A stretch of DNA of 64,000 bases from Clostridia bacterium (GTDB lineage Bacteria; Bacillota; Clostridia; Christensenellales; Aristaeellaceae), in the NCBI GenBank assembly GCA_017469265.1, contig JAFUGS010000060.1:50272-114271 (forward strand), in the 5' to 3' direction. The translations under genes and the position numbers were made by a program. The notes under the pieces were generated by a model that saw nothing but the letters and a program-made list of their open reading frames with translations, was not told where the DNA came from and did not search any database. Positions 2,484-29,692 of this stretch are shown piece by piece. Within the stretch, counting starts at the first letter, position 1, and each line of letters starts with the position of its first letter.

Positions 2484-3938
2484 ATGAAGAAACTGTTATC
2501 CATGCTCCTGACGCTGACGCTGCTGCTGACGCTGGCGGCGCCCCTGATGGCCAGGGCGGACGATCCGGAAGAGATCACCATCCTCTACCCCGGTGAGGAA
2601 ACGGATGAGATGGCGGCCTTCCTGAACGGAAAGTTCGCGGAAAAGGTGAAGGCGGACCTGAACATGAAGGTGAACTTCCGATTCCTCAGCTGGGAAGCCT
2701 ACTGGGATCAGAAACAGCTGATGCTGGCGGCGAAGGAGCCCATTGACCTGTACTGGGATGGCCTGCCGGATCTGCCCACGATCGTGAACAACAAGGAAGC
2801 CCAGCCGCTGGATGACCTGATCGCCAAATGCTGGCCGGAGAGCATGAAGGAGATTCTGCCGGACAGCCAGCTGGCCGGCGGCCGTATCGGCGGCGTCCTC
2901 TACGGGATTCCGTCCGCTTACGCCCCTTCGTCCGCCATGTTCCAGTTTGTCTGCGTGCGGCAGGATCTGCTGGAAAAGGTGGGCATGACCGAAATCAAAA
3001 ACGCGGAAGACCTGCGGGAATTCGCACTGCGGGTGCAGGAACAACTGCCCCAGTACAAGGGCGGGGCGGATATCCTCTTCAAGCCCCTGACCCGGAACTT
3101 TACGGACGAGCAGTACACCTGGGTGGCCAGCCAGGATCTGGTGGTCTTTGGTGAGGAAAGCAAGAAGGCCTACAGCTACGCGCATACCCAGGCTTTCCAG
3201 GATGTGGCCAAATTCAACCGGGAAATGTTCCTGGACGGCCTGTACGGGGACGAGGTCGCCATCAAGTACAACGAGCGGGACAGCCGGATGCAGACAGGGC
3301 TGTACCTGTGGGTGGAAGGCTCCCTGGGCAAGGATAACGAGATCAGCGGAAGCGTGAAGGTGGCGGATCCGGACGCGGTTCTGGCGAACTATCTGCTGGC
3401 GCCGGAAAAGCCCCGTTACATCAACGCCACCGGCGGCGAGGTGCTGTGCGTGCCTTATTCCGCGAAGAATCCGGAAGGCGCGATGAAATTCCTGGCCTGG
3501 ATGTGGGGCAGTCAGGAAAACTACCTCTTCTGCCTCTACGGCGAGGAAGGCAAGGACTGGGAGCTGAACGCGGACGGCCGGCTGGTAACCCTGAGCGAGA
3601 CCGCCCGGGGCGATGGTTACCTGTACGAGTGGATGTTCCGCAACGCGAACTACCAGGTCTTCCCGGAAGGCGTGAGCGACGAGTATATCGAGATGTACAG
3701 GCACTGGGACGACGAGGCGGTTCCCTCCGCCATGCTGGGCTTCGCCTTCGACAATTCCGGCCTGGAAGCGGTGGAAACCGCCTGCCTGGAAGCGTACAAG
3801 AAGCTGGAGCCGATTCTCTACGGCTATGTGGATTTCGAAACCGAGTATCCCAAGGCCATCGAGGCGCTGGAAGCCGCGGGCATCGAGCAGTATGTGGCGG
3901 AAGTGAACCGGCAGCTGGAAGCCTTCATGGGCGAGTAA
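2484..3938 (+). CDS. extracellular solute-binding protein, LplA type
   Basis: Secreted substrate-capture protein of the LplABC-like importer, 484 residues. It starts at 2484 after AAGGAGGAGACCAAG. A signal peptide covers residues 1-26 with a likely SPase I site after ARA; there is no lipobox cysteine, so the protein is not obviously a lipoprotein and retention may depend on the permeases. The body has the LplA-like layout (ITILYPGEETDEM at the mature N-terminus, DLYWDGLPDLPTIVNN, then a C-terminal lobe with repeated aromatic and acidic residues). A strong hairpin terminator lies just downstream, which should make this gene more abundant than the kinase that follows. Confidence 0.88.
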   Translation: MKKLLSMLLTLTLLLTLAAPLMARADDPEEITILYPGEETDEMAAFLNGKFAEKVKADLNMKVNFRFLSWEAYWDQKQLMLAAKEPIDLYWDGLPDLPTIVNNKEAQPLDDLIAKCWPESMKEILPDSQLAGGRIGGVLYGIPSAYAPSSAMFQFVCVRQDLLEKVGMTEIKNAEDLREFALRVQEQLPQYKGGADILFKPLTRNFTDEQYTWVASQDLVVFGEESKKAYSYAHTQAFQDVAKFNREMFLDGLYGDEVAIKYNERDSRMQTGLYLWVEGSLGKDNEISGSVKVADPDAVLANYLLAPEKPRYINATGGEVLCVPYSAKNPEGAMKFLAWMWGSQENYLFCLYGEEGKDWELNADGRLVTLSETARGDGYLYEWMFRNANYQVFPEGVSDEYIEMYRHWDDEAVPSAMLGFAFDNSGLEAVETACLEAYKKLEPILYGYVDFETEYPKAIEALEAAGIEQYVAEVNRQLEAFMGE

Positions 3939-3979
3939 TCCGGAGGACCGCGGTTCTCATTCCGGTCGGACAGCAATGG

Positions 3980-4011
3980 GCCGGCAGGGGGATTCCCCTG
4001 CCGGCGCTTTT
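3980..4011 (+). terminator. intrinsic terminator between binding protein and kinase
   Basis: Perfect 11-bp stem GCCGGCAGGGG / CCCCTGCCGGC (3980-3990 and 3995-4005) with a GATT loop, followed by GCTTTT. It sits 41 bases after the solute-binding protein gene and ends just before the ribosome site of the kinase gene, so it probably acts as a partial terminator within the operon. Confidence 0.75.
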
Positions 4012-4025
4012 GAGAGGAGACAAAA

Positions 4026-5123
4026 ATGCGGCAGCTGCTGAGCCTTTTTCAGCTGGAAGGAACGCCCATCCAGTGCGTTCCCTTTGGACAGGGACACATC
4101 AATCAGACCTGGCTGGTGGTGACCAACCGGCCCCATCTGTATATCCTCCAACGGGTGAATACGGGCATCTTTCGAGACCCGGAGGGCCTGATGCGCAACC
4201 AGCGGCTTGTCGTCGCGCACATGCGGAACAAGGGCCTGGACTCCCGCCACGTGCTGACGGCCGTGCCGACATGGGAAGGCGGCGATTTCTGCTGGGTGAA
4301 TCCTGCCACGCGGGATGGAAAGGATGATCCTGCTTCGGACGGAAGGCAGTTCTGGCGGATGTATGAATACGTCACGGGCGGAATCTGCCTGGAGCGGGCG
4401 GAGAACGCGGAGGACTTCCGCCACAGCGGAGAAGGGTTCGGCGCGTTTCAGCGTCTTCTGGCGGACTTCCCGGCGGAGCGGCTGACGGAAACCATTCCGC
4501 GTTTTCATGACACCCCTGTCCGCTTTGCGGCCCTGCGGGAGGCCCTGCGGGCGGATCCGATGAACCGGGCCGCCGGCGTCCGGCGGGAGACAGATTTCCT
4601 GCTGGCGCGGGAAGATCGGGCCGGAATCCTTGTGCGGATGCAGCGGGCGGGGGAACTGCCCCTGCGGGTGACGCACAATGACACGAAGCTGAACAACGTC
4701 ATGCTGGATGAAAAGACCAGGGAGCCCCTGTGCGTGCTGGATCTGGATACGGTGATGCCGGGCCTGGCGGCCACGGATTTCGGTGACGCGATCCGCTTCG
4801 GCGCCTCTACCGCCGCGGAGGATGAACCGGACACCAGCCGGGTCGGCCTGGATCTGTCCTATTACCGCGCCTTCGCGGAGGGATTCCTGTCCGCGTGTGG
4901 GGCCCATCTGTCCCCTGCGGAACTGGAAACCCTGCCGGAAGGCGCCTGGTGCATGACGATGGAGTCCGCGGTCCGTTTCCTGACGGACTATCTGCAGGGA
5001 GATGTCTATTTCCATACGGAGCGGCCAGGGCAGAATCTGGACCGGACCCGAACCCAGATTGCCCTGGCCGAAGCGATGGAGCGCCGGGAAAAGGAGATCC
5101 GCGGGATGCTGGCCGGAGGCTGA
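4026..5123 (+). CDS. NahK-like sugar kinase (aminoglycoside phosphotransferase fold)
   Basis: Cytoplasmic kinase of 365 residues, related to bifidobacterial N-acetylhexosamine 1-kinase. The N-terminal signature PFGQGHINQTWLVV followed by YILQRVNTGIFRDPEGLMRN is shared with NahK. The catalytic Brenner motif is HNDTKLNNV (D219 as base, N224 as metal ligand), followed by DLDT with D241 as the second metal ligand. It follows the importer genes, suggesting that it phosphorylates an imported hexose or N-acetylhexosamine; the exact sugar is inferred, not shown. ATG at 4026 has GAGAGGAG upstream. Generic APH-fold kinases for other small molecules remain an alternative. Confidence 0.8.
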   Translation: MRQLLSLFQLEGTPIQCVPFGQGHINQTWLVVTNRPHLYILQRVNTGIFRDPEGLMRNQRLVVAHMRNKGLDSRHVLTAVPTWEGGDFCWVNPATRDGKDDPASDGRQFWRMYEYVTGGICLERAENAEDFRHSGEGFGAFQRLLADFPAERLTETIPRFHDTPVRFAALREALRADPMNRAAGVRRETDFLLAREDRAGILVRMQRAGELPLRVTHNDTKLNNVMLDEKTREPLCVLDLDTVMPGLAATDFGDAIRFGASTAAEDEPDTSRVGLDLSYYRAFAEGFLSACGAHLSPAELETLPEGAWCMTMESAVRFLTDYLQGDVYFHTERPGQNLDRTRTQIALAEAMERREKEIRGMLAGG

Positions 5124-5210
5124 AAGCACCGCGGAGAAGAATCCGTCGGAAGCGTGCCGCGGCACGCGGAAAATCATTTCCAGACCCGGAAAACCAAGAC
5201 AGAAAAGAAG

Positions 5211-5237
5211 CCAGGATCCTCTACGATCCTGGTTTTT
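5211..5237 (+). terminator. intrinsic terminator of the importer-kinase operon
   Basis: Perfect 8-bp stem CCAGGATC / GATCCTGG (5211-5218, 5225-5232) with a six-base loop and five T. It closes the unit that begins at or before base 537. Confidence 0.85.
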
Positions 5238-5332
5238 CTGATCCCCCTTTTCTGTGGAGCTGAAGATGGATGGAGACGTGAGAAGAAAAAACGCAATGAA
5301 TGCAGCCTGCATCCCTTTTGGCGCATGCGCTT

Positions 5333-5341
5333 TGCTATAAT
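5333..5341 (+). promoter_or_regulatory. extended -10 promoter for the 1570-residue secreted protein
   Basis: TGCTATAAT is a consensus extended -10 element (TATAAT at 5336-5341) located 75 bases before the ATG at 5417. The -35 position holds only weak sequence (CCCTTT at 5313), as expected for extended -10 promoters. The rest of 5238-5416 shows nothing else beyond the GAAGGAGGA ribosome site. Confidence 0.65.
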
Positions 5342-5416
5342 GCGGGAAAGGGCGGAGCCCGAGCGAGAGAAAAATATCGAAAAACATCGAGCGGGAATCC
5401 GAAGGAGGATGACGGG

Positions 5417-8400
5417 ATGAAAAAAAGATGCTGGCTGCTGACGCTGTGCCTGCTGATCATCGCGCTTTGCAGCGCGGCCAGGGCGGAGCGGACGATCACG
5501 ATGACCGTAAACGGCAGCGCTTCGACATCGCAGAACGTGCTGTCCAATGAAAACGTGACGCTGGTGATCGAAGCGCCGGGAGCAACCGCGGTGCGGCTTC
5601 GGGACGGGAACGAGGATAACTGGTATTACTACGACGGCCGGGAGTGGAACACGGATTATATTGAGGCGAGCTGGACGTATAACAGCGGAGCCAAAACCGT
5701 CTATGCCCAGGCCAGGTACGACAGCTTTCCGGAGGGGACCAACCTCTGGGAAGAGGACCGGGAGGACCTGTGGCAGACCGGTGCGGAAAGCGCGCGCTTC
5801 ACGCTGTACGTATCCGCCGAGGGCGAGATGAATCCGCCGGCCGCGGCCTGGGTCGGGGCCTCCACCGTGGCCCGGGGAGAAACGCTGACGATGCGGATTT
5901 CCGGTACCCAGGGCAGAAATGAGTGGTTCTGGGTGGACGTCGGCCGGGTGCTGGATGAGGGTGATGAGATCGGATGGATGGATCATTATAACATGGGGGA
6001 TGATCTGATTCTGACGCTGCCGACGCATGCTTTCGATCCGGGAACCTATGAGATGGATGTCTTCGCCGGCGCGGTGGGATGGGATAACAAAAGCACGGCG
6101 CTGCGGTTCACCGTTACGGAGCCGGCTCAGGCGCCGGGCGCGATGCTGTCCGTCTCCAGGCCGGAGGTCCGGATTCAGGAAGCGCAGAACATCTACGGCT
6201 ATATTCCGGACGCGGACCGAATCGGCTTCATGATCCGGAAACAGGAAGATCCGACCTGGTGGAACCGGGAGGAACGGGAAGGCCCCTTCGGCGTGCTGGA
6301 AAGATGGGGCTTTCCGGATAAAGGAACCTACATCATCTCCTTGCTGGACCTGAGCGAGGAAACCGCGGTGGAGATCCGCGAGGCTTCGGTGACTGTCAGT
6401 CAGGACGCGCTTTCCGGCCGCCTGACCATTCCGAATCTTTCCGGCATACCGAAGCGGGTTTCGACGGGTGAAGGCGTGAACGCTGTTCTGGAAATCGATG
6501 AGAATGCCTCCGGGTTCGACCTGGATCTGGAGTACTGCCAGGACAGCGGCGACCGGGAAGAGCTGCTGCATTTCAACCGTACGCTGGGGTCCGGTTCACT
6601 GACGCCGGAGATGATGCGGACGATTCATCTGCCCGCGACCCTTTTTCAGCGGGAAGGGATTTACCGGCTGCAGGTCGGGGTCTGGGCGGATCGGTACGAG
6701 GGCAATGGCGCCGAATGCTATTTCCTGTGCCGGGACGGGGAGCCGGAAGCACAGCTGACGCTGACGGTGAACGGCGGCACCGGGGATCTGGCGTCCTGGC
6801 CCAGCGGCAGGGGGCTGGACATCCGTGTGCAGGCACCGGAAAACGTGACCGCGGTCCGGCTGTGGAAAAACGGGTACTGGGATTACCGCGGCAATCCGCG
6901 GGAGGGACTGCGCTGGGAGGAAGGCTTTGGCGACGGGGATTACATGCTGATCGCCCAGGCAACCACGGCGGACCCCATCTGGCGTGCGGATGGGTTCGAC
7001 TGGGAAAACTTCCAATGGGAGGACCTGGACTGGTCCCTGTCCAGCGACGCGGTCAGGGTGCATTCTGCCAGCCAGGGGACGATGCAGATCCCGGAGGTGA
7101 CCCTGTCCGCCGCCAGCGTGGCCCGGGGGGAGATCATTGCGGCCATCATTACACCCCAGCGGGAAAGTGAATGGTACTGGGCGGAACTGATGACCCTGCG
7201 GCGCGAAGAAGACCAGTGCTGGTATGAAACGATCCGCCATCTGGATGGAAATGGCCAAAACCAGCTTCGGATCCATACGCTGGACCTGGAACCGGGAGAT
7301 TACTATCTCCGGATCGGCATTGACGCCGAAGGCTGGGCCGGCAGGGATCGCGTGATTCCGATCATCGTCCGCGAGCCGGAAGGGGAACTGCCGGAAGCCA
7401 TGCTGGACTTCAGCCGGGAAACCATGCAGGCCAGCGAGAACCTGACGGTCTATGCCTCCGCGCCCGGGTGCGATCATTTCCGGCTGGATATACGCTGGGA
7501 CCGGGATCCGTACTGGGAGGACGGCCGGGACGACTGGAAAAACGACAGCATTTCCTGGGGATGGGGCTGCGGCTGCGGCGGAACCTATACCTTTACGCTG
7601 TCTTACTGGCAGCCCGGAGCGCAGGAAGCGGGAACCATTACGAAGACGCTGACGGTTACCTCGGAAGGCGCGCTGGATCAGCCCGAAATGGAAGGCGTGC
7701 CGGCGGTCCTGAGCCTGGGAGAAGGCATCCGGGCCAGCTTCCAGGCCATTGACGGCGCGGAATGGTACAACGTGGGCATCCGGTACTCCGAAAACGGATG
7801 GGACTGGGAAGACCTGGTGAATGAAGAACGGGATCCCGGGGAGGACGGCGCGACGGCGCTGGTTTTTGGACCGGAGATATTCTCCCGTACCGGCACCTAT
7901 CAGATCTGGGTTGATGCGGCCGCGGTGGGGGTCGATAACGGATATCGCGAAGCACAGATGGAAGTGATCGATCCGGCGACGATCAGCGACAGCCTGGTGC
8001 TGAAAATCAACGGCGAAACGGATGGCGCGCAGGCGGAGGTCTACCTGCATGAGAATGTGCTGATCTCGGTGGACGCACCGGAAAATGTGACGGCCGTACG
8101 GATCCGGAACGCGTATAATGAATGGGAATACCGCTGGTGCGGGGATGACGCCTATGAATGGTGGATGGGCGCCCATCAGGGCGGGGATGACACCTACATT
8201 GCGCAGGCCAGCACGGATCGGTCCATTGTGGACTGGGCGGAGGCAAACGACGGCAGTCTGGACGGGTTCGACTGGAGCGGCCTGACCTGGAGCATGACCA
8301 GCGCGCCGGTGACCATGCATGTCATCTATTGCGGTGACCTGGAGGCGCCGGAGATCACCTTCCCGAACGGGACGGCAGTGGAATGGGGAAACACGCTGGA

Positions 8401-10129
8401 CTTTACCCTGACCCCTGTGGAGAATGCCTACGGTTACGGCGTCCAGATCCGGAAGGCGCGGGACAGCGGGGAATGGTCAGAACCGGTGCTGGATATGGAA
8501 ATCACCGCGGATGAAACCACCCTGCTTCAGATTCCCACGGACGCGCTGGAACCCGGGAACTATATGCTGGCCGTTGATCCCAGGCGCTATGGCTGGCACG
8601 GGGATCAGGAGCGCTATGCCTTTACCGTCCTGGCATCCGCCGGATGGACGGCGGAACCGCTGTTCCGGGCGGACAGGGCGGAAGCGCTGACCCTGGAAAC
8701 GGTCACCTTCTCCGTCCGGGCGCCTGGCGCGGAGCGGGTGAAACTCTGCTTCGCTGATGCGGGAAACGTCTGGCAGGAGACGGAAGGGGAAAGCCTGATT
8801 TTCCGGGTGGGGATGAACTGGGTCAGAACCTATGATCTGTACGCTTACGCGATATATCCGGACCAGGAGGACTGGCAGCCTGTGGGGGAAACCGTTTATG
8901 TCAGCGTGACCGCCCCGAACGGCGGCGTATATGTGCGGGCCCTGACAGGGCCCGACACCGCGAGGACGGATGAAACCGTGACCTTTGAGGCGGCGCTGGA
9001 TTTTTCGGAAGCAGGCGGAACGGGACATGGCGAGTGCTGGCTCAGCGATGAGAACGGCCAGATTCACGACATGGAAGTCAGCGAAACCACGGACGGAGGC
9101 GTGTGGCGGGTCACCTGCCGGATTCCGGCGGAAACCCTCGCGCCCGGACTGTACTATGTAACGGTGTACGCGCTTCCGGACAGAGCGGGATATGCCCTCG
9201 GCATGAAGGAACGGGCGGTCACCATCACGGAGGGAACGCCGGCCGGCACGCTGACCGCCAGCAAAAACCCGGTGGAAATCTTTGAAAACTTCACCCTGAC
9301 GGTCAACGCCCCCGGCGCGACGGCTGTCGCCGTGTATGAGGACGGCTGGTGGGATTACGCGGCGGGATCCTTCCTGGAAGTTCCGATGAACACCTGGGGG
9401 GACGGAGAAACCGTTTATTACGCCAAATACACGACCGCGGCAATCACGCCGGACGCGCCGGATTTCGACTGGGAAACGGTGGAATGGGACGGCCTGACCA
9501 ACGCGGTCACCGTATATACGAACCCGCCTTCCTACGCGCTGGAAGTCCTGCGGTTTACGGTGAAAAACAGGGCCGTGATCCGGGGCAAGGAGCTTGAGAT
9601 CACGGTTCTGAATGAAAACAGCCACCTGGAGAATGTGGCCTACGGCGCGCATCTGCTGCCCGTTGGGGGAAATTTCTCCGGTTCCAGCTGGTTTGGCGCG
9701 GATGCAGACAAAAAGATCCTGGTCAACACCGCGGAAGTGGAGCCGGGCGAATACTGGCTGGAGGTTTCCGCCAACTGCATCAGCTGCTACGGAGTTTCGG
9801 ACCGGATCCAGGTGACGGTTCTCCCGCGCCCGGCGGCTTCGACCGTGCTGACCCTGCCCGCGGGGCTGCGGGTGATTTCGGAGGAAGCCTTTGCCGGCGT
9901 GGCGGCGGAGAAAATCATCGTACCGGCGGGCGTGACGGAGATCGGATCCCGGGCTTTCGCGGACTGCCCCAATCTGATCGAGCTGGAGCTGCCTGAAGGG
10001 ATCACCTCTTTCGCGGCGGACGCGCTGGACGGATCGGGCACCATCTTCCTTTACGGAGAACCCGGAAGTGACCTGGAAGCTTACGCCGAAGCCTGCGATG
10101 GGCTGCGGTTTATCCCGGCCACGGAATAA
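5417..10129 (+). CDS. giant secreted protein: tandem Ig-like super-repeats with C-terminal LRR_5 repeat
   Basis: Secreted protein of 1570 residues; ATG at 5417 after GAAGGAGGA, signal peptide at residues 1-23 ending ARA. I see four beta-rich module types that recur in fixed order about every 415-420 residues. Type A (EAPGATAVRLRDG-like) begins near residues 45, 465, 880 and 1290. Type B (VARGE) begins near 140, 560, 980 and 1377. Types C and D begin near 237/657/1077 and 336/757/1169. That gives three full A-B-C-D sets plus A-B. A BspA-type LRR_5 repeat follows (VISEEAFAGV, IGSRAFADCPNLIELELPEG, residues about 1480-1545). There is no LPXTG or clear C-terminal anchor. A surface adhesin or glycan-binding role is plausible but unproven. 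It is transcribed alone, between a promoter at 5333 and a terminator at 10163. Confidence 0.8.
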   Translation: MKKRCWLLTLCLLIIALCSAARAERTITMTVNGSASTSQNVLSNENVTLVIEAPGATAVRLRDGNEDNWYYYDGREWNTDYIEASWTYNSGAKTVYAQARYDSFPEGTNLWEEDREDLWQTGAESARFTLYVSAEGEMNPPAAAWVGASTVARGETLTMRISGTQGRNEWFWVDVGRVLDEGDEIGWMDHYNMGDDLILTLPTHAFDPGTYEMDVFAGAVGWDNKSTALRFTVTEPAQAPGAMLSVSRPEVRIQEAQNIYGYIPDADRIGFMIRKQEDPTWWNREEREGPFGVLERWGFPDKGTYIISLLDLSEETAVEIREASVTVSQDALSGRLTIPNLSGIPKRVSTGEGVNAVLEIDENASGFDLDLEYCQDSGDREELLHFNRTLGSGSLTPEMMRTIHLPATLFQREGIYRLQVGVWADRYEGNGAECYFLCRDGEPEAQLTLTVNGGTGDLASWPSGRGLDIRVQAPENVTAVRLWKNGYWDYRGNPREGLRWEEGFGDGDYMLIAQATTADPIWRADGFDWENFQWEDLDWSLSSDAVRVHSASQGTMQIPEVTLSAASVARGEIIAAIITPQRESEWYWAELMTLRREEDQCWYETIRHLDGNGQNQLRIHTLDLEPGDYYLRIGIDAEGWAGRDRVIPIIVREPEGELPEAMLDFSRETMQASENLTVYASAPGCDHFRLDIRWDRDPYWEDGRDDWKNDSISWGWGCGCGGTYTFTLSYWQPGAQEAGTITKTLTVTSEGALDQPEMEGVPAVLSLGEGIRASFQAIDGAEWYNVGIRYSENGWDWEDLVNEERDPGEDGATALVFGPEIFSRTGTYQIWVDAAAVGVDNGYREAQMEVIDPATISDSLVLKINGETDGAQAEVYLHENVLISVDAPENVTAVRIRNAYNEWEYRWCGDDAYEWWMGAHQGGDDTYIAQASTDRSIVDWAEANDGSLDGFDWSGLTWSMTSAPVTMHVIYCGDLEAPEITFPNGTAVEWGNTLDFTLTPVENAYGYGVQIRKARDSGEWSEPVLDMEITADETTLLQIPTDALEPGNYMLAVDPRRYGWHGDQERYAFTVLASAGWTAEPLFRADRAEALTLETVTFSVRAPGAERVKLCFADAGNVWQETEGESLIFRVGMNWVRTYDLYAYAIYPDQEDWQPVGETVYVSVTAPNGGVYVRALTGPDTARTDETVTFEAALDFSEAGGTGHGECWLSDENGQIHDMEVSETTDGGVWRVTCRIPAETLAPGLYYVTVYALPDRAGYALGMKERAVTITEGTPAGTLTASKNPVEIFENFTLTVNAPGATAVAVYEDGWWDYAAGSFLEVPMNTWGDGETVYYAKYTTAAITPDAPDFDWETVEWDGLTNAVTVYTNPPSYALEVLRFTVKNRAVIRGKELEITVLNENSHLENVAYGAHLLPVGGNFSGSSWFGADADKKILVNTAEVEPGEYWLEVSANCISCYGVSDRIQVTVLPRPAASTVLTLPAGLRVISEEAFAGVAAEKIIVPAGVTEIGSRAFADCPNLIELELPEGITSFAADALDGSGTIFLYGEPGSDLEAYAEACDGLRFIPATE

Positions 10130-10162
10130 GCGGCCGGATCTACGGAAGGAAAAGAAACATAC

Positions 10163-10195
10163 GCGGGGCCGGCGGATACGCCGGCCCCGCGCTTT
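10163..10195 (+). terminator. intrinsic terminator after the super-repeat gene
   Basis: Perfect 12-bp stem GCGGGGCCGGCG / CGCCGGCCCCGC (10163-10174, 10179-10190) with a GATA loop, followed by GCTTTA. The U-tract is short but the stem is very strong. Confidence 0.7.
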
Positions 10196-10283
10196 ACGGA
10201 CAGAAGGAACCGGGCTTTTCAGTGATCGCTGAGGCCGGGAAAAGCGCGCCTGTCCGGGAAAAGAATGTATGCAGGCAGCATTC

Positions 10284-10312
10284 TTGCGCTCCGGGAGGTT
10301 CAATGGTATAAC
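10284..10312 (+). promoter_or_regulatory. promoter for the HTH-kinase pair
   Basis: TTGCGC at 10284-10289 and TATAAC at 10307-10312 are separated by 17 bases, with TGG before the -10 giving an extended element. It lies 63 bases upstream of the HTH gene start at 10375. Confidence 0.6.
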
Positions 10313-10374
10313 TATGACAGCATCCACAGATAACGGCAGCGGCCGGCATGATCAGAAAAACGGGGGGTTGCGGC

Positions 10375-10809
10375 ATGGCGGATAAAGTCAGCACCGATTC
10401 CCTGCTCAGAAAAATATTCCGGACGAAAAACCTGAATACGTTTCTGCAGCAGAACGAGCAGCATCTGCGGACCGTTGATTTTCAGACGCTGCTGCGGGAT
10501 TACTGCGCGGCGCGAAACATGATTCCGGAGCGGGTCATCCTGCTGGCGCAGATCGACCGAACCTATGGGCATCAACTGTTCAACGGCACGCGCCGGCCTT
10601 CCCGGGAGCGGGTGCTGCAGCTGGCCGTGGCCCTTGGCCTGTCGCTGGAGGAGACGCAGCGGCTGCTGCAGGCGGCCGGCCGGAGCGCGCTGTACCCCCG
10701 GCTGAAGCGGGACGCGGTGGTAATCTTCTGTCTGAAGAACGGATACGACATGATGCGGACCCAGGAACTGATGAGCAGGTACGATCTGACGCCGCTGGGG
10801 GAATCATAA
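10375..10809 (+). CDS. XRE-like helix-turn-helix protein paired with a kinase
   Basis: 144-residue cytoplasmic protein. I chose the ATG at 10375, which has GGGGGG eight bases upstream, over an in-frame ATG at 10348 without a site. A helix-turn-helix region lies at about residues 45-95: VILLAQIDRTYGHQLFNGTR matches the turn and recognition helix of Cro/XRE proteins, followed by RPSRERVLQLAVALGLSLEE. The C-terminal helix region resembles clostridial regulators. It is separated by only two bases from the downstream kinase gene, so the two are translated together and likely work together, with the HTH protein a candidate DNA-binding output or substrate of the kinase. That link is inferred from gene order only. 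Confidence 0.65.
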   Translation: MADKVSTDSLLRKIFRTKNLNTFLQQNEQHLRTVDFQTLLRDYCAARNMIPERVILLAQIDRTYGHQLFNGTRRPSRERVLQLAVALGLSLEETQRLLQAAGRSALYPRLKRDAVVIFCLKNGYDMMRTQELMSRYDLTPLGES

Positions 10810-10811
10810 GG

Positions 10812-12524
10812 ATGGAAAAGGAGAAAATCACCGGGCCGGAGCTCCCGGATGAAACGGAATATCCGACGGCGCTGACGGAAGCATATGAGCTGATGGAGCG
10901 GATGTCCGCTTCCCCCGGAACGGAAACCCTGCTGGCCCGCAGGCGGGATACGGGGGAAAAGGTCACGGTAAAATGCTTCCTGGCGGAGAATCCGCTCTTT
11001 GATCATTCGGAGCCGGAAACGCTGCGAAATCTGAATGTGCCGCCGCTGCCCGGCTTTGTCGGCGAGTATCGGAATGAAAGCATGCGCTGCGTGCTGCGGC
11101 AGTATGTGGAGGGGGAGTCCCTGGCGGACCGCGCCGCGGGGGAGCGGCTGACGGAAGCGCGGGTCCGGGAAATCGGCATTCAGTTATGCGAGGAGCTGCG
11201 GGCGCTGCACAGCACCGAGCCGCCGGTCATTCACCGGGATGTGAAGCCGCAGAATATCATCCTTCGGGAAGACGGGATCCCTGTGCTGATCGATTTCGGG
11301 ATCGCCCGGGTCTGCTCGGAAAAGAAAACGGATACCCTGATCCTGGGCACCCACGGCTTCGCGCCACCGGAGCAGTATGGCTTTTCCCGGACGGATGCCC
11401 GGTCCGATCTGTACAGCCTGGGCATGGTGCTGCACTGGCTGCTGCATGGCGACACGGAGCAGCCGCAGGGCGCCGTCACGCCGCTGGAAAAGGTGATTCT
11501 GCGGATGACCGCGTTTGACCCGCAGCGGCGTTTCGCTTCCGCGGCGCAGGCGAAGAAGGCGCTGGAAAGAACAGAACCGGCGCAAAGACGCCGGCGCCTG
11601 TTCCGGTGGGCGGCGGCCGCGGCGCTGGTGACGGCGGTCATCGTGCTGGGCGTGACATGGTTCCTGCGGAAGCAGGAAGAACGGGCTGCCTTCGCCGAGC
11701 CGCTGATGGCGGAGGCGGCGCGCCTGAACCTGGGGCTGGCGGAAGGGGAGGCGCTTTCCCGAAGCCGACTGGCGGAGGTCAGGGGTATCTACATCATGGC
11801 CAATCAGGCCTACGCGGACGCGGATGCCTTCTACCAGGCGGTCAACCGCTGGTATTCGGAGGGAAAGCCGGATCGGGGGGCCATGACGGATCTGGCGGAT
11901 TTGTCCATGATGCCCCATGTGGAACAGGTCTGCGTGGCGGCCCAGCAGCTGGCGGATCTGTCGGCCCTGGAGGGGCTGGAGCAGCTGAAAAGGGTGGAGC
12001 TCAAGCATAACCAGATCCAGGATGCGTCCGTGCTCGCGGGGAGAACCCTGCTGACTTCGGTGGGACTCAACGATAACCCGATCCGGGATCTGTCGCCGCT
12101 GCTTTCCTGCCCTAATCTGGCCTTTCTGGACCTTTGCGACGTGCGGAACTATGATCCGGAGCTGATCAGGCAGCTTGGCAATTTTCAGTATCTGGACATC
12201 TCCAACCCGACGGAAAGCTATCATTACCTGGGGCGGAAAAGCGTTGCGATGCTGCGCCTGGCCTGGACGGGGCTGAATACGCTGGAGGATCTGGCAGGGG
12301 TGACCCTGCTGGAGGACCTGGATATCTCCCACACGGCGGTCAGCGACCTGACGCCGATCGCCTGCCACACCGGGCTGAAGGTCCTGAAGATGGTGGATAT
12401 CCCGGTGACGGACCTGACGCCGCTGCTTTCGCTGCCCATGCTGGAAAGCGTGACGCTGGGCAGGGATCAGGCGGATCTGGCGGAATCGCTGGGGGACGCG
12501 CCTTTTTCCATCCTGTACGAATAA
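10812..12524 (+). CDS. membrane Ser/Thr protein kinase with extracellular leucine-rich repeats
   Basis: 570 residues: cytoplasmic kinase domain, one membrane span at about 265-285 (WAAAAALVTAVIVLGVTWFL), then an extracellular region with leucine-rich repeats at about 375-560. Kinase motifs are VTVKCF (ATP-binding K54), HRDVKPQN (catalytic D143), DFG (D161) and an activation segment GTHGFAPPEQYG. The Gly-rich loop is degenerate (SASPGTETLLA, no GxGxxG). The repeats read like KRVELKHNQIQDASVL and TSVGLNDNPIRDLSPL. This is a Hanks-type kinase arranged like PASTA kinases but with LRRs as sensor. It is followed by a terminator at 12533. The signal sensed and the targets are unknown. Confidence 0.85.
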   Translation: MEKEKITGPELPDETEYPTALTEAYELMERMSASPGTETLLARRRDTGEKVTVKCFLAENPLFDHSEPETLRNLNVPPLPGFVGEYRNESMRCVLRQYVEGESLADRAAGERLTEARVREIGIQLCEELRALHSTEPPVIHRDVKPQNIILREDGIPVLIDFGIARVCSEKKTDTLILGTHGFAPPEQYGFSRTDARSDLYSLGMVLHWLLHGDTEQPQGAVTPLEKVILRMTAFDPQRRFASAAQAKKALERTEPAQRRRRLFRWAAAAALVTAVIVLGVTWFLRKQEERAAFAEPLMAEAARLNLGLAEGEALSRSRLAEVRGIYIMANQAYADADAFYQAVNRWYSEGKPDRGAMTDLADLSMMPHVEQVCVAAQQLADLSALEGLEQLKRVELKHNQIQDASVLAGRTLLTSVGLNDNPIRDLSPLLSCPNLAFLDLCDVRNYDPELIRQLGNFQYLDISNPTESYHYLGRKSVAMLRLAWTGLNTLEDLAGVTLLEDLDISHTAVSDLTPIACHTGLKVLKMVDIPVTDLTPLLSLPMLESVTLGRDQADLAESLGDAPFSILYE

Positions 12525-12889: not shown

Positions 12890-14275
12890 ATGCTTACAGA
12901 CATTATTACACCGCGAAAGAGTCAGTTTGACGAAGCGGCCCAGACGGTGCTGCGGGGGCATGAAAACCGCTCCCGACGGGTCGCGCTGCTGAAGGGGAGC
13001 CTGACGCAGAACAGCCGCGGCGAAAGCCGGGGCATCAGCGCCCGGGTGACCCGGGAGGGACGGTACGGTTTCGCGTCCATCGCTTCCTACACGGAAGCGG
13101 ACGCGGAACGCGTGCTGCGCGCGGCGACGGAAAACGCGCGCTTCCTGGCGGACCGGGCCGGAAGCCCCCGGGCGGCGTATCCCGCGCTGGCGGGGGGAAC
13201 GGTTTCCCCCGTCCGCCCGGTGACGGATACGGCGCAGAAGCGGATCATTGAAGCCTGCCAGGCCCTGGACCGGTATGTCCAAAACAAATATCCAAAGCTG
13301 CTGAGCCGCACGATCGTGTATACGGAGGACTCCCAGGAAAAGATCATCGCCACCTCGGACGCGGCCAGCGGCCATGTGACGTATCCCCGGTGCTACATCT
13401 ATGTCATGCTTTCCGCGGAGGGGAAAAACGGCGCGCCGGTGGAGCTGTTCAAGGCTTTCGGCGGCGCCGGCAGCTTTGAGGATCACTTCGCGGATCTGGC
13501 GCAGTATGAGCCGGCCATCGACGCCCTGTATCAGCACCTGATGAACAAGACGGAGGGCGTATACGCGGAAGCGGGAAACAAGACCGTGATCCTGGGCGGC
13601 ATGATGGGCGGCATGCTGGCCCATGAGGCGGTGGGCCACACGGTGGAGGCGGACCTGGTGCTGGGCGGCAGCGTGGCCGGCCCGAACCTGGGCAAACCCG
13701 TGGCCTCGGAGATGGTGACGCTGGTGGACTTTGCCAGCGAAGCCTTCGGCGCGCCGACCCCCCTGCCGGTGTTCCTGGATGACGAGGGCACGCTGGCCCG
13801 GGACGCGACGCTGATCGAAAACGGCATCCTGAAGGGATACATGAACAGCCGGGAGAGCGCCGCGCGCTTCGGAATGGAGCCCCTGGGGAACGCCCGGGCG
13901 TGGATGTTCAACGACGAGCCCCTGATCCGGATGCGGAACACCTGCATTCTTCCCGGCCGCAGCAGCCTGGAGGAGATGATCGCCTCCATTGACGACGGGT
14001 ATTACCTCATCGACAGCAGCAACGGGCAGGCGGACCTGACGGGGGAATTCATGTTCGGCGTGTCCCTGGGATATGAAATCAAAAAGGGAAAGCTGGGCAG
14101 GGCCCTGCTGGACACGACGGTGAGCGGCGTGGCCTTCGACATGCTGAAGACGGTTGATATGCTGGGCGAGCGGGTCACGTGGTCTTCCAGCGGCTTCTGC
14201 GGAAAGAAGCAGCCCATGCCGGTGGGCATGGGCGGGCCGGATATGCGCTGCCGGATCACCATCGGCGGACGCTGA
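12890..14275 (+). CDS. tldD: TldD-like metallopeptidase subunit
   Basis: 461 residues; ATG at 12890 after AGGAGGGAAT. TldD carries the active site of the TldD/TldE heterodimeric zinc protease, which cleaves unfolded or small modified peptides. The zinc motif HEAVGH (H245, E246, H250) is intact inside MLAHEAVGHTVEAD. The C-terminal half keeps family features such as SRESAARFGMEPLGNARA and FMFGVSLGYEIKKGKLGRA. tldE follows 18 bases downstream, as expected for a complex. In other bacteria the pair processes microcins, but no peptide precursor is visible nearby, so general peptide turnover is the safer reading. Confidence 0.92.
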   Translation: MLTDIITPRKSQFDEAAQTVLRGHENRSRRVALLKGSLTQNSRGESRGISARVTREGRYGFASIASYTEADAERVLRAATENARFLADRAGSPRAAYPALAGGTVSPVRPVTDTAQKRIIEACQALDRYVQNKYPKLLSRTIVYTEDSQEKIIATSDAASGHVTYPRCYIYVMLSAEGKNGAPVELFKAFGGAGSFEDHFADLAQYEPAIDALYQHLMNKTEGVYAEAGNKTVILGGMMGGMLAHEAVGHTVEADLVLGGSVAGPNLGKPVASEMVTLVDFASEAFGAPTPLPVFLDDEGTLARDATLIENGILKGYMNSRESAARFGMEPLGNARAWMFNDEPLIRMRNTCILPGRSSLEEMIASIDDGYYLIDSSNGQADLTGEFMFGVSLGYEIKKGKLGRALLDTTVSGVAFDMLKTVDMLGERVTWSSSGFCGKKQPMPVGMGGPDMRCRITIGGR

Positions 14276-24690: not shown

Positions 24691-26301
24691 GTGGCCGGAA
24701 AGAGCCGCGTCCGGCGGGAGGATGCCCGGGTGAAGGCGCCGGCGCTGCTTCACCTGGTCCGAATGGGGTACAGGTATCTTCCCCGGGAAGAGATTCAGAG
24801 AGACCCGGAGACATGCATTCTGCCCTCGGCGCTCAGGGACGCTGTGGCGCGGATCAATGGCGCGGAACTGGCGGAGGAAAGCTTCTCGCGGCTGATGGCC
24901 GACCTGCGAACCCTGCTGGCCATGGAGGATCTGGGACAGGGGTTCTATACCGTGCTCCGGGACGGATGGAACGGGCTGCGGCTGCTGGACTTCGCGCGCC
25001 CGGAGAGAAACTGCTTCCAGGTGGGGACGGAGATCCCCTGCGCCCGGGGGCGGAAGCGGTTCCGGCCGGACATCACCGTGTTTGTCAACGGCCTGCCCCT
25101 GGCCATGATGGAGGTCAAGGCGCCGGAACAGCGGGACGGCATTCTGGCGGAATATGACCGGATGTGCCGGCGGTTCCGGGAGGGGGCGTTCCGCCGGTTT
25201 CTGCAGGCGGCGCAGCTCTGGCTGTTTTCCAATGACCAGAGCGTGGACACGGCGGCGCTGACGCCCCGGGACGGGGCCTATTACACCACCGCGGCCGCGG
25301 AGACGTTTTCCATCTATCCCGGGCCGGGCAGGGCCGACCGCGGCCTGTACCGGGGCTCCGCGCTGGACCGGAAAACGGAAGCGCGGGTCCTGGCGGATCT
25401 GGGGCTGGAGGAGATCCGGAAGGATCCGGCTTACCGCAGGTGGAAGGCGGCGGATACGCCGACGAACCGGATGCTGACGGCGCTGCTGAGGCCGGAAAGG
25501 TTTCTGTTCCTGCTGCGCTTCGGCATCCGCTATGTGGAGGATCCGGCGGACGGGGTCCGGAAGCGGATCCTGACCTGGGAACAGCTGGACGCCCTGAGCC
25601 GCGTGGAGAAAAAGCAGGCGCGGGGTTTTCTGAACTGGCGGATTCCCTGCACCAGGCCCGCTGAACGGTGCTTTCTCGGGGCGGCGGCCGCAGCCGTCCT
25701 GCGGGAGCGGATGCCGGACTGCCGGCTGATCTGGGTCGTGGAAAGCCGGGCGGAAAAGCGGCGGGCGGAAGCGGCTTTCCGCGGCCAGGGCCTTCAGGAG
25801 GGAGAGATGACCCTGCTGGCCGCGGAGGAAATCCGGCGGGACATGTACGCCGCTCCGGAGGAACGCGCCTTCACGGGCCGGCGCGTGTTCTTCCTCAGCG
25901 AGCCGGCGCAGCAATACCGCCCGACGCGGGGCCAGCCCGCGGGCCGGCTTCGGGCCGCGGATCCCCGGGCGATTCTGATCACCATGGGAGCGGAGGCGCT
26001 GCACGAGGGAGAGAACTATACCTACCTGCTGCAGTGCGCGGACGGCACCCTTTACTGCGGGTGGACCAATGACCTGGAAAACCGGGTCAGAACCCACAAC
26101 GCGGGCAGGGGCGCCAGATACACCCGGAGCCGGCTGCCGGTGCGGCTGGTATACTGGGAACGCTTTGAAACAAAGGAAGAAGCCATGCGGCGGGAATGGC
26201 GGATCAAGCGGCTGAGCCGGGCGGAAAAGGAAGAACTGATCCGGAAAGCGGGTATGGAGCTGAACCCCGGCGCGAGGCGGGAGAAAGGACGAAAGGCATG
26301 A
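24691..26301 (+). CDS. fusion nuclease: HsdR_N (PD-ExK) - decayed RecA-like domain - GIY-YIG
   Basis: 536 residues; GTG start at 24691 with GGACGGAGG just upstream. Residues about 10-180 match the N-terminal nuclease of type I restriction HsdR: RPDITVFVNGLPLAMMEVKA with D127, E141 and K143 intact. Residues about 265-435 follow the first HsdR motor domain in order (FLNWRIPCTRPAERCFL where a W-H-x-x-GSGKS segment is expected, LIWVVESR like the TDR motif, VFFLSEPAQQYR where DEAHRSQ is expected), but Walker A and the DEAH box are lost. The second motor domain is replaced by a complete GIY-YIG domain at 440-515 (YTY 443-445, YCG 455-457, R465, E502). No hsdM or hsdS is nearby. It is followed with a four-base overlap by an SDR gene. 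Role unknown; DNA cleavage in defence or repair is inferred. Confidence 0.75.
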   Translation: MAGKSRVRREDARVKAPALLHLVRMGYRYLPREEIQRDPETCILPSALRDAVARINGAELAEESFSRLMADLRTLLAMEDLGQGFYTVLRDGWNGLRLLDFARPERNCFQVGTEIPCARGRKRFRPDITVFVNGLPLAMMEVKAPEQRDGILAEYDRMCRRFREGAFRRFLQAAQLWLFSNDQSVDTAALTPRDGAYYTTAAAETFSIYPGPGRADRGLYRGSALDRKTEARVLADLGLEEIRKDPAYRRWKAADTPTNRMLTALLRPERFLFLLRFGIRYVEDPADGVRKRILTWEQLDALSRVEKKQARGFLNWRIPCTRPAERCFLGAAAAAVLRERMPDCRLIWVVESRAEKRRAEAAFRGQGLQEGEMTLLAAEEIRRDMYAAPEERAFTGRRVFFLSEPAQQYRPTRGQPAGRLRAADPRAILITMGAEALHEGENYTYLLQCADGTLYCGWTNDLENRVRTHNAGRGARYTRSRLPVRLVYWERFETKEEAMRREWRIKRLSRAEKEELIRKAGMELNPGARREKGRKA

Positions 26302-27119
26302 CGGAAAACAGGAAAACCGTGTGGGTCACGGGCGCGTCCAGCGGACTGGGCCTGCACACGGCCATGGCGCTGCGAGACGCGGGATGGCGGGTGATTGCCG
26401 GCGCCAGAAGCTTTTCGGAGCCGGGGGAGAAGGACGGCATGTACCGCCTGCCGCTGGACGTGCGGGATGAAGCCAGCGTGGAGGCCTTCTGCGACCGGGC
26501 GCTGGAGATTTCCCCGCGCCTGGACGCGCTGGTGCAGTGCGCGGGCATGCTGGTGCTGGGCTCCTGCGAGGAGACGGCCATCGAGGAATACCAGCGGGTG
26601 ATGGACACGAATTTTCTGGGCATGGTGCGGGTGAATCAGCAGGCCCTGCCCATCCTGCGGGCGCAGGGAGAAGGGCGGATCGTGCTGTTTTCCTCCATCA
26701 ACGGCCTGCTGGGCATCCCTTTCCAGAACGCGTATACCGCCAGCAAACACGCCATCGAGGGATACGCGGAGGGCCTGCAGATGGAAGTGCGGCCCTTTGG
26801 CATCCAGGTGATGCTGGTGGAGCCGGGAGATCACCGCACCGGCAGCGAGAAATACCGTCACCAAGCGGCGAAGATGGGGCCGGAATCCCCCTACGCGGCG
26901 GCTTACGCAAGCGCCACGGCGAAAATCCATCATGACGAGACGAACGGCAGCGACCCGGATCAGCTGGGGCGCAAAATCGCCCGGATGCTGGAAAAACGCC
27001 GGATGCCTTTCCGGAAGCGCATCGCCAGTCCGGACCAGCATCTGGCGGTCTGGCTGCACAAGCTGCTGCCGGCCCGGTGGAATGAAAAGATCCTGCGGGA
27101 TTATTATATCAAAAACTGA
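26298..27119 (+). CDS. short-chain dehydrogenase/reductase (SDR)
   Basis: 273-residue NAD(P)-dependent oxidoreductase. The start ATG at 26298 overlaps the nuclease stop (ATGA), with GAAAGGACGAAAGG upstream. The nucleotide-binding motif is TGASSGLG near the N-terminus, the active site YTASKHAIEGYAEGL gives Tyr and Lys, and SSINGLLG supplies the catalytic Ser. The C-terminal third is longer than minimal SDRs and resembles SDRs acting on lipids or retinoid-like substrates. The overlap with the nuclease gene implies co-transcription, but no functional link is apparent. Confidence 0.9.
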   Translation: MTENRKTVWVTGASSGLGLHTAMALRDAGWRVIAGARSFSEPGEKDGMYRLPLDVRDEASVEAFCDRALEISPRLDALVQCAGMLVLGSCEETAIEEYQRVMDTNFLGMVRVNQQALPILRAQGEGRIVLFSSINGLLGIPFQNAYTASKHAIEGYAEGLQMEVRPFGIQVMLVEPGDHRTGSEKYRHQAAKMGPESPYAAAYASATAKIHHDETNGSDPDQLGRKIARMLEKRRMPFRKRIASPDQHLAVWLHKLLPARWNEKILRDYYIKN

Positions 27120-28207: not shown

Positions 28208-28258
28208 ACCCGGTAATCAGACGGTGGCTGAAAGTGATGGAAAGAAAGGATGAGCTGC

Positions 28259-29692
28259 ATGAGAAGAAAAGGCTGGCGGAAGAGCGCGGCGTGTATGCTG
28301 CTGGCGCTTTGCCTCGGCGTGTGCTGGCTGGCCTTCCCCTCCGGAAGCGAAGCGGATGCACCGGAAGCCACGAACGATCTGACAGAGGAACAGGACGACT
28401 CCACGGAAGGGCAGGAGGGTGAGGAGACGCCCACCCCGACGCCGACACCCACACCGACGCCTGAGGAGACGCCGACGCCTACGCCGACCCCTGAGGAGAC
28501 GCCGACGCCCACACCTACACCCACACCTGAGGAGACACCGACGGAAAAGCCAACACCCACGCCGACGCAGCCTCCGGCGGAAACGACTACGGGTGCCCCT
28601 GCAGAGACGACCACGATTCCGCCCGCGACGCCTACTCCGCAAGACGAGGATACTTTCACATTGGAGAATGGTGAGCTGAGAATCAAAGACGGTGTCACGG
28701 AGATCACGGAGGGACAGTTCAAGGGAAGGTCAGATATCACAAAAGTGTATCTGCCGAATTCGGTAAAGACGATTCAAAAAAACGCCTTTGCGAATTGTTC
28801 AAATCTGAAGGAAATTGTCATTTCACCCGAGAGCAGTGAATTGAAAACAATTGGTGAAAAAGCTTTTCAGAACTGTGACAGGCTGAATGAGGACAGCATG
28901 AAGACGCTGAGAAGCATAAAGGGCATCAGCATTGCAGACGATGCGTTTCCTGCAAAAGAGACCCCTACGCCGATGCCTTCTTCGAAGCCTACGGCCACAT
29001 CGGATCCCACGCCTACCCCGACCCCTGCGGCCACGCCGGATCCCGGGGAGGATACGGCGCAGGAGGAGCATGAGGTTCCTTCCGCTTCCGGATCGGGGAG
29101 CAAGACCACCACGACCAAAACAAACACAACCACCACGACCAAAAAGGTCACCCACGCCAGGGGCACGACCACCATGACCCATGACTATGATCAGGTGCAG
29201 GTTACGGAAGCGGACAGCGGGACGGCCATGCATACCCTGACGCTGGGTGGTGAGACGATGGCGCTGTCCCTGCAGGACGGGGACGGGGCGGAAGCGGAAT
29301 TTACCCTGAGCTACGGGCGGCATGATGCCGAAGACCCGGACAGCGGCGCGGTGAATACCCTGATCCTGAAGGCGGCGGATCCGGCGGCCTGCGAATGGAC
29401 GATGAACGGGGAAACGCTGCGAAAGCTGAACAAGAGCGGGATCGCGTACCTGACCTTTGAGATCGGCGGCGTTACCGTGACCGTACCGACGGAGGGCTTC
29501 CTGGCCGGCTGGACCTACGACGCGCTGAAGAGCCGGGGCACCGCGGGCCGGCGGTTTGAATACGAGCTGAAGATGGGGGATACGGACGCGCAGTGGGCTG
29601 TAACGGTGGAAAGCCAGCGCTATGAGCTGGATACGGATCCCCTGGCGCCGATGTACCTGGTGGGGCTCGAAGCGGCGGAAAGCAATGGATAA
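28259..29692 (+). CDS. secreted Thr/Pro-stalk protein with LRR_5 domain
   Basis: 477 residues from ATG 28259 (GAAAGG nine bases upstream; the ATG at 28250 sits on the ribosome site). Signal peptide at 1-30. Residues about 55-125 are a Thr-Pro repeat stalk (EETPTPTPTP units). Residues about 130-230 are a BspA-type LRR_5 domain (EITEGQFKGRSDITKVYLPN, TIQKNAFANCSNLKEIVI). A second Thr/Pro stretch and a Thr/Lys run (TTTTKTNTTTTTKK) precede a C-terminal beta-rich domain (residues about 300-477). There is no sorting signal. The LRR_5 segment is visibly AT-richer than its surroundings. It is the first gene of the 28.2-37.8 kb operon and probably a surface recognition component. Confidence 0.75.
   Translation: MRRKGWRKSAACMLLALCLGVCWLAFPSGSEADAPEATNDLTEEQDDSTEGQEGEETPTPTPTPTPTPEETPTPTPTPEETPTPTPTPTPEETPTEKPTPTPTQPPAETTTGAPAETTTIPPATPTPQDEDTFTLENGELRIKDGVTEITEGQFKGRSDITKVYLPNSVKTIQKNAFANCSNLKEIVISPESSELKTIGEKAFQNCDRLNEDSMKTLRSIKGISIADDAFPAKETPTPMPSSKPTATSDPTPTPTPAATPDPGEDTAQEEHEVPSASGSGSKTTTTKTNTTTTTKKVTHARGTTTMTHDYDQVQVTEADSGTAMHTLTLGGETMALSLQDGDGAEAEFTLSYGRHDAEDPDSGAVNTLILKAADPAACEWTMNGETLRKLNKSGIAYLTFEIGGVTVTVPTEGFLAGWTYDALKSRGTAGRRFEYELKMGDTDAQWAVTVESQRYELDTDPLAPMYLVGLEAAESNG
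28421..28568 (+). repeat. Thr/Pro-coding tandem repeat
   Basis: Four irregular units that each begin GAGGAGAC(G/A)CC and continue with alternating ACG/ACC/ACA and CC(N) codons, encoding EETP followed by (TP)n of variable length. Unit length differs (42, 30, 36, then about 40 bases), typical of slippage-prone stalk repeats. A shorter similar stretch lies at about 28966-29040. Confidence 0.85.

Follow-up and report, generated by a model that had tools for sequence, protein, structure and literature searches.

An HsdR-type nuclease domain without its motor, fused to a UPF0213 GIY-YIG nuclease domain in a genus of Clostridia

The 64,000-nucleotide stretch of a Clostridia genome analyzed here (contig JAFUGS010000060.1; henceforth termed the window) carries an open reading frame in which the front part of a type I restriction subunit, HsdR, runs in frame into a whole GIY-YIG domain (Table 1). 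In the textbook view, HsdR cleaves DNA only when assembled with HsdM and HsdS and once its motor has translocated the DNA. Pfam identifies Na/Ca exchanger, SDR, NAGPA and HlyD-type genes in the surroundings of the fusion, and genes further out in the window appear ribosomal-protein-like from their translations. An initial annotation had proposed that one chain unites two unrelated nucleases with intact catalytic residues, and this proposal holds: Pfam assigns both an HSDR_N and a GIY-YIG domain, and the residues are conserved among relatives. Between HSDR_N (9-185) and GIY-YIG (442-513), Pfam returned no match, and the NCBIfam HsdR model TIGR00348 matched only residues 21-186, with 56.8 bits against a cut-off of 284.55. 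When a profile of the 13 family members described below was compared with known structures, it matched the UPF0213 proteins 1zg2 (1.7e-25) and 1ywl (6.7e-21), and a weak match was obtained to EcoR124I HsdR (2w00, 0.0018).

Table 1. Features of the fusion gene and the gene that follows it, in window coordinates.
Feature	Position	Strand	Remarks
Fusion gene, 536 aa (536 codons)	24691..26301	+	GTG start, TGA stop; found in 10/45 genomes of the genus
HSDR_N PD-(D/E)xK nuclease domain, residues 9-190	24715..25260	+	PF04313 residues 9-185, E 1.6e-21
Stretch with PD-(D/E)xK residues D127, E141, K143	25069..25119	+	Invariant in 13/13 members and 12/12 HsdR comparators
Decayed RecA1 of the HsdR motor, residues 301-435	25591..25995	+	Profile comparison with HsdR RecA1
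Lost Walker A GSGKT site, residues 323-327 = PAERC	25657..25671	+	Lysine absent in 13/13; GSGKT in 12/12 HsdR comparators
Lost DEAH site, residues 403-406 = SEPA	25897..25908	+	Absent in 13/13; DEAH or DEVH in 12/12 HsdR comparators
Internal in-frame ATG 5' of the GIY-YIG domain, probably unused	25984..25986	+	In 3/10 fused genes, without Shine-Dalgarno-like 4-mer
UPF0213/Slx1-like GIY-YIG nuclease domain, residues 442-520	26014..26250	+	PF01541 residues 442-513, E 6.6e-19
Short-chain dehydrogenase (SDR) gene	26298..27119	+	Pfam adh_short 2.9e-41; start overlaps fusion stop (ATGA)

The start codon, GTG 24691, lies eight bases behind a GGAGG and coincides with the start of aligned relatives. 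A gene finder calls the fusion a gene as well, a call that is not independent evidence since the frame was in the program's first training set. Two doubts voiced in the initial annotation concerned the reality of the single chain. That the junction near codon 430 is an assembly or sequencing artefact is ruled out by its presence in 10 of the 45 genomes of the genus. Nor is the GIY-YIG part likely, as a rule, to be translated separately from ATG 25984: this codon occurs in few of the fused genes and lacks a Shine-Dalgarno-like 4-mer, and in two of the ten there is no in-frame ATG, GTG or TTG within 40 codons ahead of the GIY motif. One fused gene (L037) has a GTG with a Shine-Dalgarno-like 4-mer ahead of its GIY motif, which counts against this rejection.

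Relatives were collected from a search of 61 genomes, a scan of a species-level genome collection and the 45 genomes of the genus. The family is present in 13 of these 45 genomes. Ten members, 45-58% identical to the window protein across the fused genes, share the three-part order, and the other three comprise just the HsdR part and stop close to where the fusion would begin (L035, the same gene as L008; L038; and L042, the same gene as L009). All 13 match the HSDR_N domain (PF04313). The species-level scan returned 25 loci, 12 from the HsdR-GIY-YIG family and 13 others. The 12 named records are all Clostridia or Clostridiales assemblies, with a ruminant host in five of the titles (goat three times, sheep, roe deer) and none in seven. 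At E <=1e-20, 19 of the 308 genomes searched in the taxonomic family had a match, namely the 13 members and six genes with frames of 1006-1074 codons, and 396 genomes drawn from the order gave eight matches, three of them members and five HsdR-type genes. These HsdRs keep Walker A and DEAH.

In searches of mobile elements, the four loci examined (L088, H1, H2 and H13) hold HsdRs with motor motifs. Viral contigs yielded a single locus (L088), an HsdR with motor motifs. The plasmid search returned 43 records and the phage search two, among the matches listed all below 60% identity, a level that by itself leaves room for diverged members. Three of these hits, two from plasmid records (H1, H2) and one from a phage record (H13), lie in open frames of 1056, 1010 and 1037 codons, respectively, which contain Walker-A-type and DEAH-type patterns (in H13 the pattern is GGGKS and may not be a true site) and no GIY pattern. 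The record behind H2 is labelled a Neisseria gonorrhoeae plasmid and is chromosome-sized (2.17 Mb); residues 5-312 matched it at 39.9%, and the frame (3471-6503 of locus L098) is unannotated there. Plasmid pBUN2 of Bacteroides uniformis (L099, 1755-2582 and 2986-6150) has genes annotated as a GIY-YIG nuclease and a type I restriction endonuclease close together on opposite strands, which encode separate proteins and not a fusion.

Within the family, the nuclease and the motor have fared differently. According to the initial annotation, conservation of D127, E141, K143 and E502 with simultaneous loss of Walker A would support a functional family. For D127, E141 and K143 this combination is found in all 13 members; no member has the Walker A lysine or the DEAH box, whereas none of the 12 HsdR comparators lacks them. 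D127, E141 and K143 correspond by motif to D151, E165 and K167 of EcoR124I HsdR, in which D151A, E165H and K167A enzymes do not cut and E165A and E165D enzymes cut poorly (PMC2602864). Engineered fusions of a motorless HsdR nuclease to HsdM are described as not restriction-active in PMC6158711, so that intact residues are no proof of activity. The assignment of the middle region to the first HsdR RecA domain, also made in the initial annotation, was borne out by a comparison of the remnant with HsdR RecA1 (hhalign probability 95.9, E 5.8e-9, 136 columns; eight column-shuffled profiles scored probabilities of 0.1-0.8). The second motor domain is likewise absent as claimed, the chain either ending or switching to GIY-YIG after RecA1. 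Mean pairwise identity of HSDR_N is 0.55 both within the family and among working HsdRs; that of RecA1 is 0.32 within the family versus 0.63 among HsdRs, based on 12 HsdR rows, some of them truncated at the end of a contig or locus. The comparators do not include L092, whose motor motifs are intact, or L044-L055. Among L043-L055, GSGK[ST] occurs in 11 of 13 and a DEAH-type motif also in 11 of 13: L053, a 229-codon frame, has neither, L054 has no GSGK[ST] and L046 no DEAH-type motif.

Purifying selection acts on all parts of the fusion. In three sister pairs, dN/dS (Nei-Gojobori with Jukes-Cantor correction, bootstrapped over codons) was 0.20-0.22 for HSDR_N, 0.33-0.46 for the dead RecA and, in two pairs, 0.24-0.29 for GIY-YIG, with upper 95% bounds all <=0.71. 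Several of these dS values are close to saturation: of 1000 bootstrap replicates, 104 gave no defined dS for one RecA pair, and 116 gave none for one pair of the segment 191-300. Uncorrected pN/pS averaged 0.80 for residues 291-435 and 0.53 for HSDR_N over 78 pairs, and 0.35 for GIY-YIG over 45 pairs. The drop in RecA1 identity and its pN/pS of 0.80, together with a dN/dS below one, indicate that the RecA remnant is relaxed yet still selected as protein. Random HsdR pseudogenes, which the initial annotation had considered as an explanation for the homologues, are ruled out by the invariant catalytic residues and the dN/dS values. A related possibility is that HsdR is vestigial, a decaying gene that reads through into UPF0213 and the translationally coupled SDR and is kept open for these downstream genes only. 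The strong decay of the RecA part would fit this explanation, and the ATGA stop-start overlap, present in eight of the ten fused genes, would give a reason for the frame to stay open; yet dN/dS is below one in every part tested, the dead RecA domain included, and the catalytic triad has remained invariant over a long divergence, in the unfused copies too. We therefore regard a vestigial HsdR as very improbable.

The GIY-YIG domain retains nearly the complete residue set listed in the initial annotation. Y445, Y455-C456-G457 and R465 are invariant in all ten fused and in 20 standalone copies (a set that excludes L030, missed by the search pattern). The other two positions each vary in one fused gene: the Y443 column holds Tyr in nine and Phe in L032 (Tyr in 16 and Cys in 4 of the standalone copies), and E502 is Glu in nine and Asp in L033 (Glu in 20/20 standalone copies). 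GIY-YIG is the most conserved segment of the fusion; its fused copies (mean identity 0.72) resemble one another as closely as standalone copies do (0.69). UPF0213 matches are present in 41 of the 45 genomes of the genus. Each of the ten fused genomes has exactly one, the fused copy, and each of the three unfused genomes has one separate copy; the lack of a second copy, like the HsdM/HsdS absences reported below, refers to fused genomes with an estimated completeness of 54-97%.

The genomic position points to the origin of this domain. Directly 3' of the fused gene lies the same SDR in eight of the ten loci and the same NAGPA in the other two (L032, L033). Since 3 of 18 standalone UPF0213 loci of other species precede the same SDR, the fusion stands at the place of a resident UPF0213 gene. 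By this position and by being the sole UPF0213 match per fused genome, GIY-YIG is an orthologue of the UPF0213 of the genus and no newly gained restriction domain. A search for an HsdR remnant beside the 18 standalone UPF0213 loci, in flanks of up to 1.5 kb, gave nine weak matches at E 0.076 or worse.

These observations also bear on the view that GIY-YIG does the work and that the HsdR part is a DNA-binding or regulatory arm, its residues kept for fold, metal or DNA binding and not for cutting. In favor of such an arm are the high conservation of GIY-YIG and its standing as the only UPF0213 match in each fused genome, as well as the known fusions of the Slx1 family to other proteins (with methyltransferases as partners of prokaryotic Slx1-like proteins; PMC1564403). 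Against it, the three members without GIY-YIG still keep the D/E/K residues, HSDR_N has a dN/dS of 0.22 in the unfused pair L035-L038, and invariance of all three catalytic residues exceeds what general fold retention would call for, which makes a non-cutting HsdR arm rather unlikely. A further UPF0213 fusion was noticed in L027 (G013), from another species of the genus, where a 334-codon frame on the minus strand, reaching into 1504-1743, joins a 2-thiouracil desulfurase (PF04463, E 3.8e-43) in frame with a UPF0213 GIY-YIG domain; such a fusion to another gene means that fusion by itself says little on function.

In a 25-row tree that includes the 12 HsdR rows, the 13 members form one clade (100/100) with a stem of 1.54 changes per column. 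This clade is nested within HsdRs from its own taxonomic family and adjoins L094, L095 and L096, which are HsdRs of sister genera, a placement which indicates that the fusion family grew out of full-length HsdRs of that taxonomic family. The unfused copies nest among the fused ones, beside L036 (98/95). A topology with the fused copies as one clade and the unfused copies outside is rejected (AU p 0.0095 with 3 HsdR rows and 0.0055 with 12 rows), and the unfused copies thus look derived from fused ones. At least two state changes are required, which we read as one fusion and one later loss of GIY-YIG, an order drawn from a single gene tree whose stem is long. An SDR tree of 12 rows, which covers 8 of the 10 fused species and is poorly supported within its main clade, places two of the three host species of unfused copies apart from the clade of the fused species, a hint that the unfused form may have been transferred.

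The initial annotation had noted that neither HsdM nor HsdS is present. In the genome of the window (91.75% complete), no PF01420 (Methylase_S) match was found and two weak PF02384 (N6_Mtase) matches exceed the Pfam cut-off, the better with E 1.6e-5, so that no convincing partner is seen there. HsdS (PF01420) was not found in seven of the ten fused genomes, this one included; weak N6_Mtase matches over the Pfam cut-off occur in three of these seven (G000, G019, G026), the best with E 1.8e-8 (G019). The claim does not extend to the remaining three fused genomes (G027, G018, G062), where both subunits are encoded elsewhere; the three unfused genomes also encode both, on contigs other than that of the family gene. 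In the genomes that carry them, fused or unfused, these subunits may be borrowed.

A defence nuclease, i.e., a motorless type IV- or type II-like enzyme that recognizes foreign or modified DNA alone or with borrowed HsdM/HsdS, would draw on this last observation and on the HsdR ancestry of the protein. The three different gene contexts of the unfused copies and the position of two of their three host species in the 12-row SDR tree likewise fit some horizontal movement. The fused genes, in contrast, are all found at a single chromosomal site, next to a shared set of metabolic-type genes. PADLOC models match 2 of the 21 neighboring window proteins, both ABC transporters recognized via their ATPase part, and the window protein itself matches only type I restriction models, via its N-terminus. 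For the 30 neighbors of unfused genes, the traced PADLOC matches are three L042 proteins, all partial (two via an ABC-type ATPase, one a helix-turn-helix protein), and there is a separate mad2 match with E 1e-16. Apart from the mad2 match, PADLOC thus identified no convincing defence gene among the 21 window neighbors and the 30 neighbors of unfused genes; the flanks of the other fused loci were judged by eye. The window neighborhood looks housekeeping-like rather than like a defence island, and we consider a defence role unlikely.

Comparison with known systems delimits what is new in this architecture. With type I HsdR (TIGR00348; EcoR124I, 2w00) the fusion shares HSDR_N with its D, E and K residues and the order of nuclease followed by RecA1, but it lacks Walker A, DEAH, the second RecA domain and the helical C-terminus, and in most fused genomes HsdS as well. 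From UPF0213/Slx1-like proteins (1zg2, 1ywl) it has the whole domain with the family residues, E502 in nine of ten; while UPF0213 is usually a short free protein, it here forms the C-terminus of proteins ~520-570 aa long. The initial annotation knew of no described family with this architecture. A link between HsdR and GIY-YIG does have a precedent: MCA0838 of Methylococcus capsulatus, reported in 2006, combines an HsdR nuclease and an Slx1-like GIY-YIG domain in one chain (PMC1564403). MCA0838 has typical motor domains and a GIY-YIG inserted near residue 800, whereas the present fusion has a dead motor and is conserved over a clade; the same paper notes a close homologue of MCA0838 without GIY-YIG and the authors' opinion that the insertion may not matter. 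Another precedent is provided by HSDR_N-HsdM fusions, natural in ZMO1934 (PMC8432527) and engineered (PMC6158711), in which the HsdR nuclease is also freed from its motor. Those proteins have a methyltransferase partner and a specificity subunit, and the fusion reported here has a second nuclease and neither of these. For a motorless HsdR-GIY-YIG protein, no description was found in the open-licence literature, among the matches listed and at the level of titles and opening abstracts.

Taken together, our best reading is a domesticated HsdR nuclease that works without motor or partners and is joined to a GIY-YIG nuclease of housekeeping type, with its activity and substrate predicted from the conserved residues and the family resemblance. 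We suggest that one lineage of gut Clostridia domesticated the HsdR gene of a common type I restriction system. The second RecA domain and the helical C-terminus would have been lost in the process, and the first RecA domain lost its residues for ATP binding and hydrolysis. The remainder would then have been joined in frame to the resident UPF0213 gene, which encodes a prokaryotic Slx1-like GIY-YIG protein. The product is a predicted endonuclease with two active sites that would act independently of ATP and of HsdM/HsdS, cutting DNA without translocation and without methylation-specific partners. In this protein, the RecA remnant may serve as a folded spacer or a DNA-holding platform. The GIY-YIG part would do the job of the former separate UPF0213 enzyme, on branched or single-stranded DNA by family resemblance, and the PD-(D/E)xK part would make a second cut.

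On balance, we lean towards a working two-nuclease enzyme without a motor; a strict version in which both sites cut in concert we put forward tentatively, as a possibility we doubt. Because 3 of 13 members do without GIY-YIG, the coupling is not essential and the HsdR part does not depend on GIY-YIG. The repurposed ATP-independent nuclease suggested in the initial annotation would, as judged from the motor loss and the lack of partners, still be the likeliest reading, although its housekeeping-like neighborhood departs from the anti-phage setting that had been considered. Its most likely role is housekeeping DNA processing or repair rather than restriction by methylation pattern. For prokaryotic Slx1-like proteins, a role in double-strand break repair has been predicted (PMC1564403). 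An HsdR nuclease without a motor, and mostly without partners, constitutes a natural test of whether this domain cuts alone, and the family also tests what the remaining RecA fold does. It documents how a restriction subunit became a domesticated chromosomal gene in a bacterial lineage, and the fused partner may point to the substrate of the little-known UPF0213 nucleases.

Several smaller observations were made at related loci. In one unfused species (L079, G012:C9, 1321-6018, minus strand), the standalone UPF0213 gene is immediately followed by sbcD- and sbcC-like genes in the same orientation, a neighborhood that hints at a DNA-repair role. The C-terminal tails of the unfused proteins L035 and L038 (GFSAVVMR and GGFSAILLR) align with the first GIY-YIG strand, EGGNYTYLLE, and are stub-like, although too short for proof. 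In L035, at 9463-12147, the HsdR remnant is located directly before two genes related to the window genes at 12890 and 14294, which we take to be TldD and PmbA. Within the window, the frame at 28250-29692 contains a long Thr-Pro-rich repeat segment; of this frame, the gene finder retained no more than the final portion.
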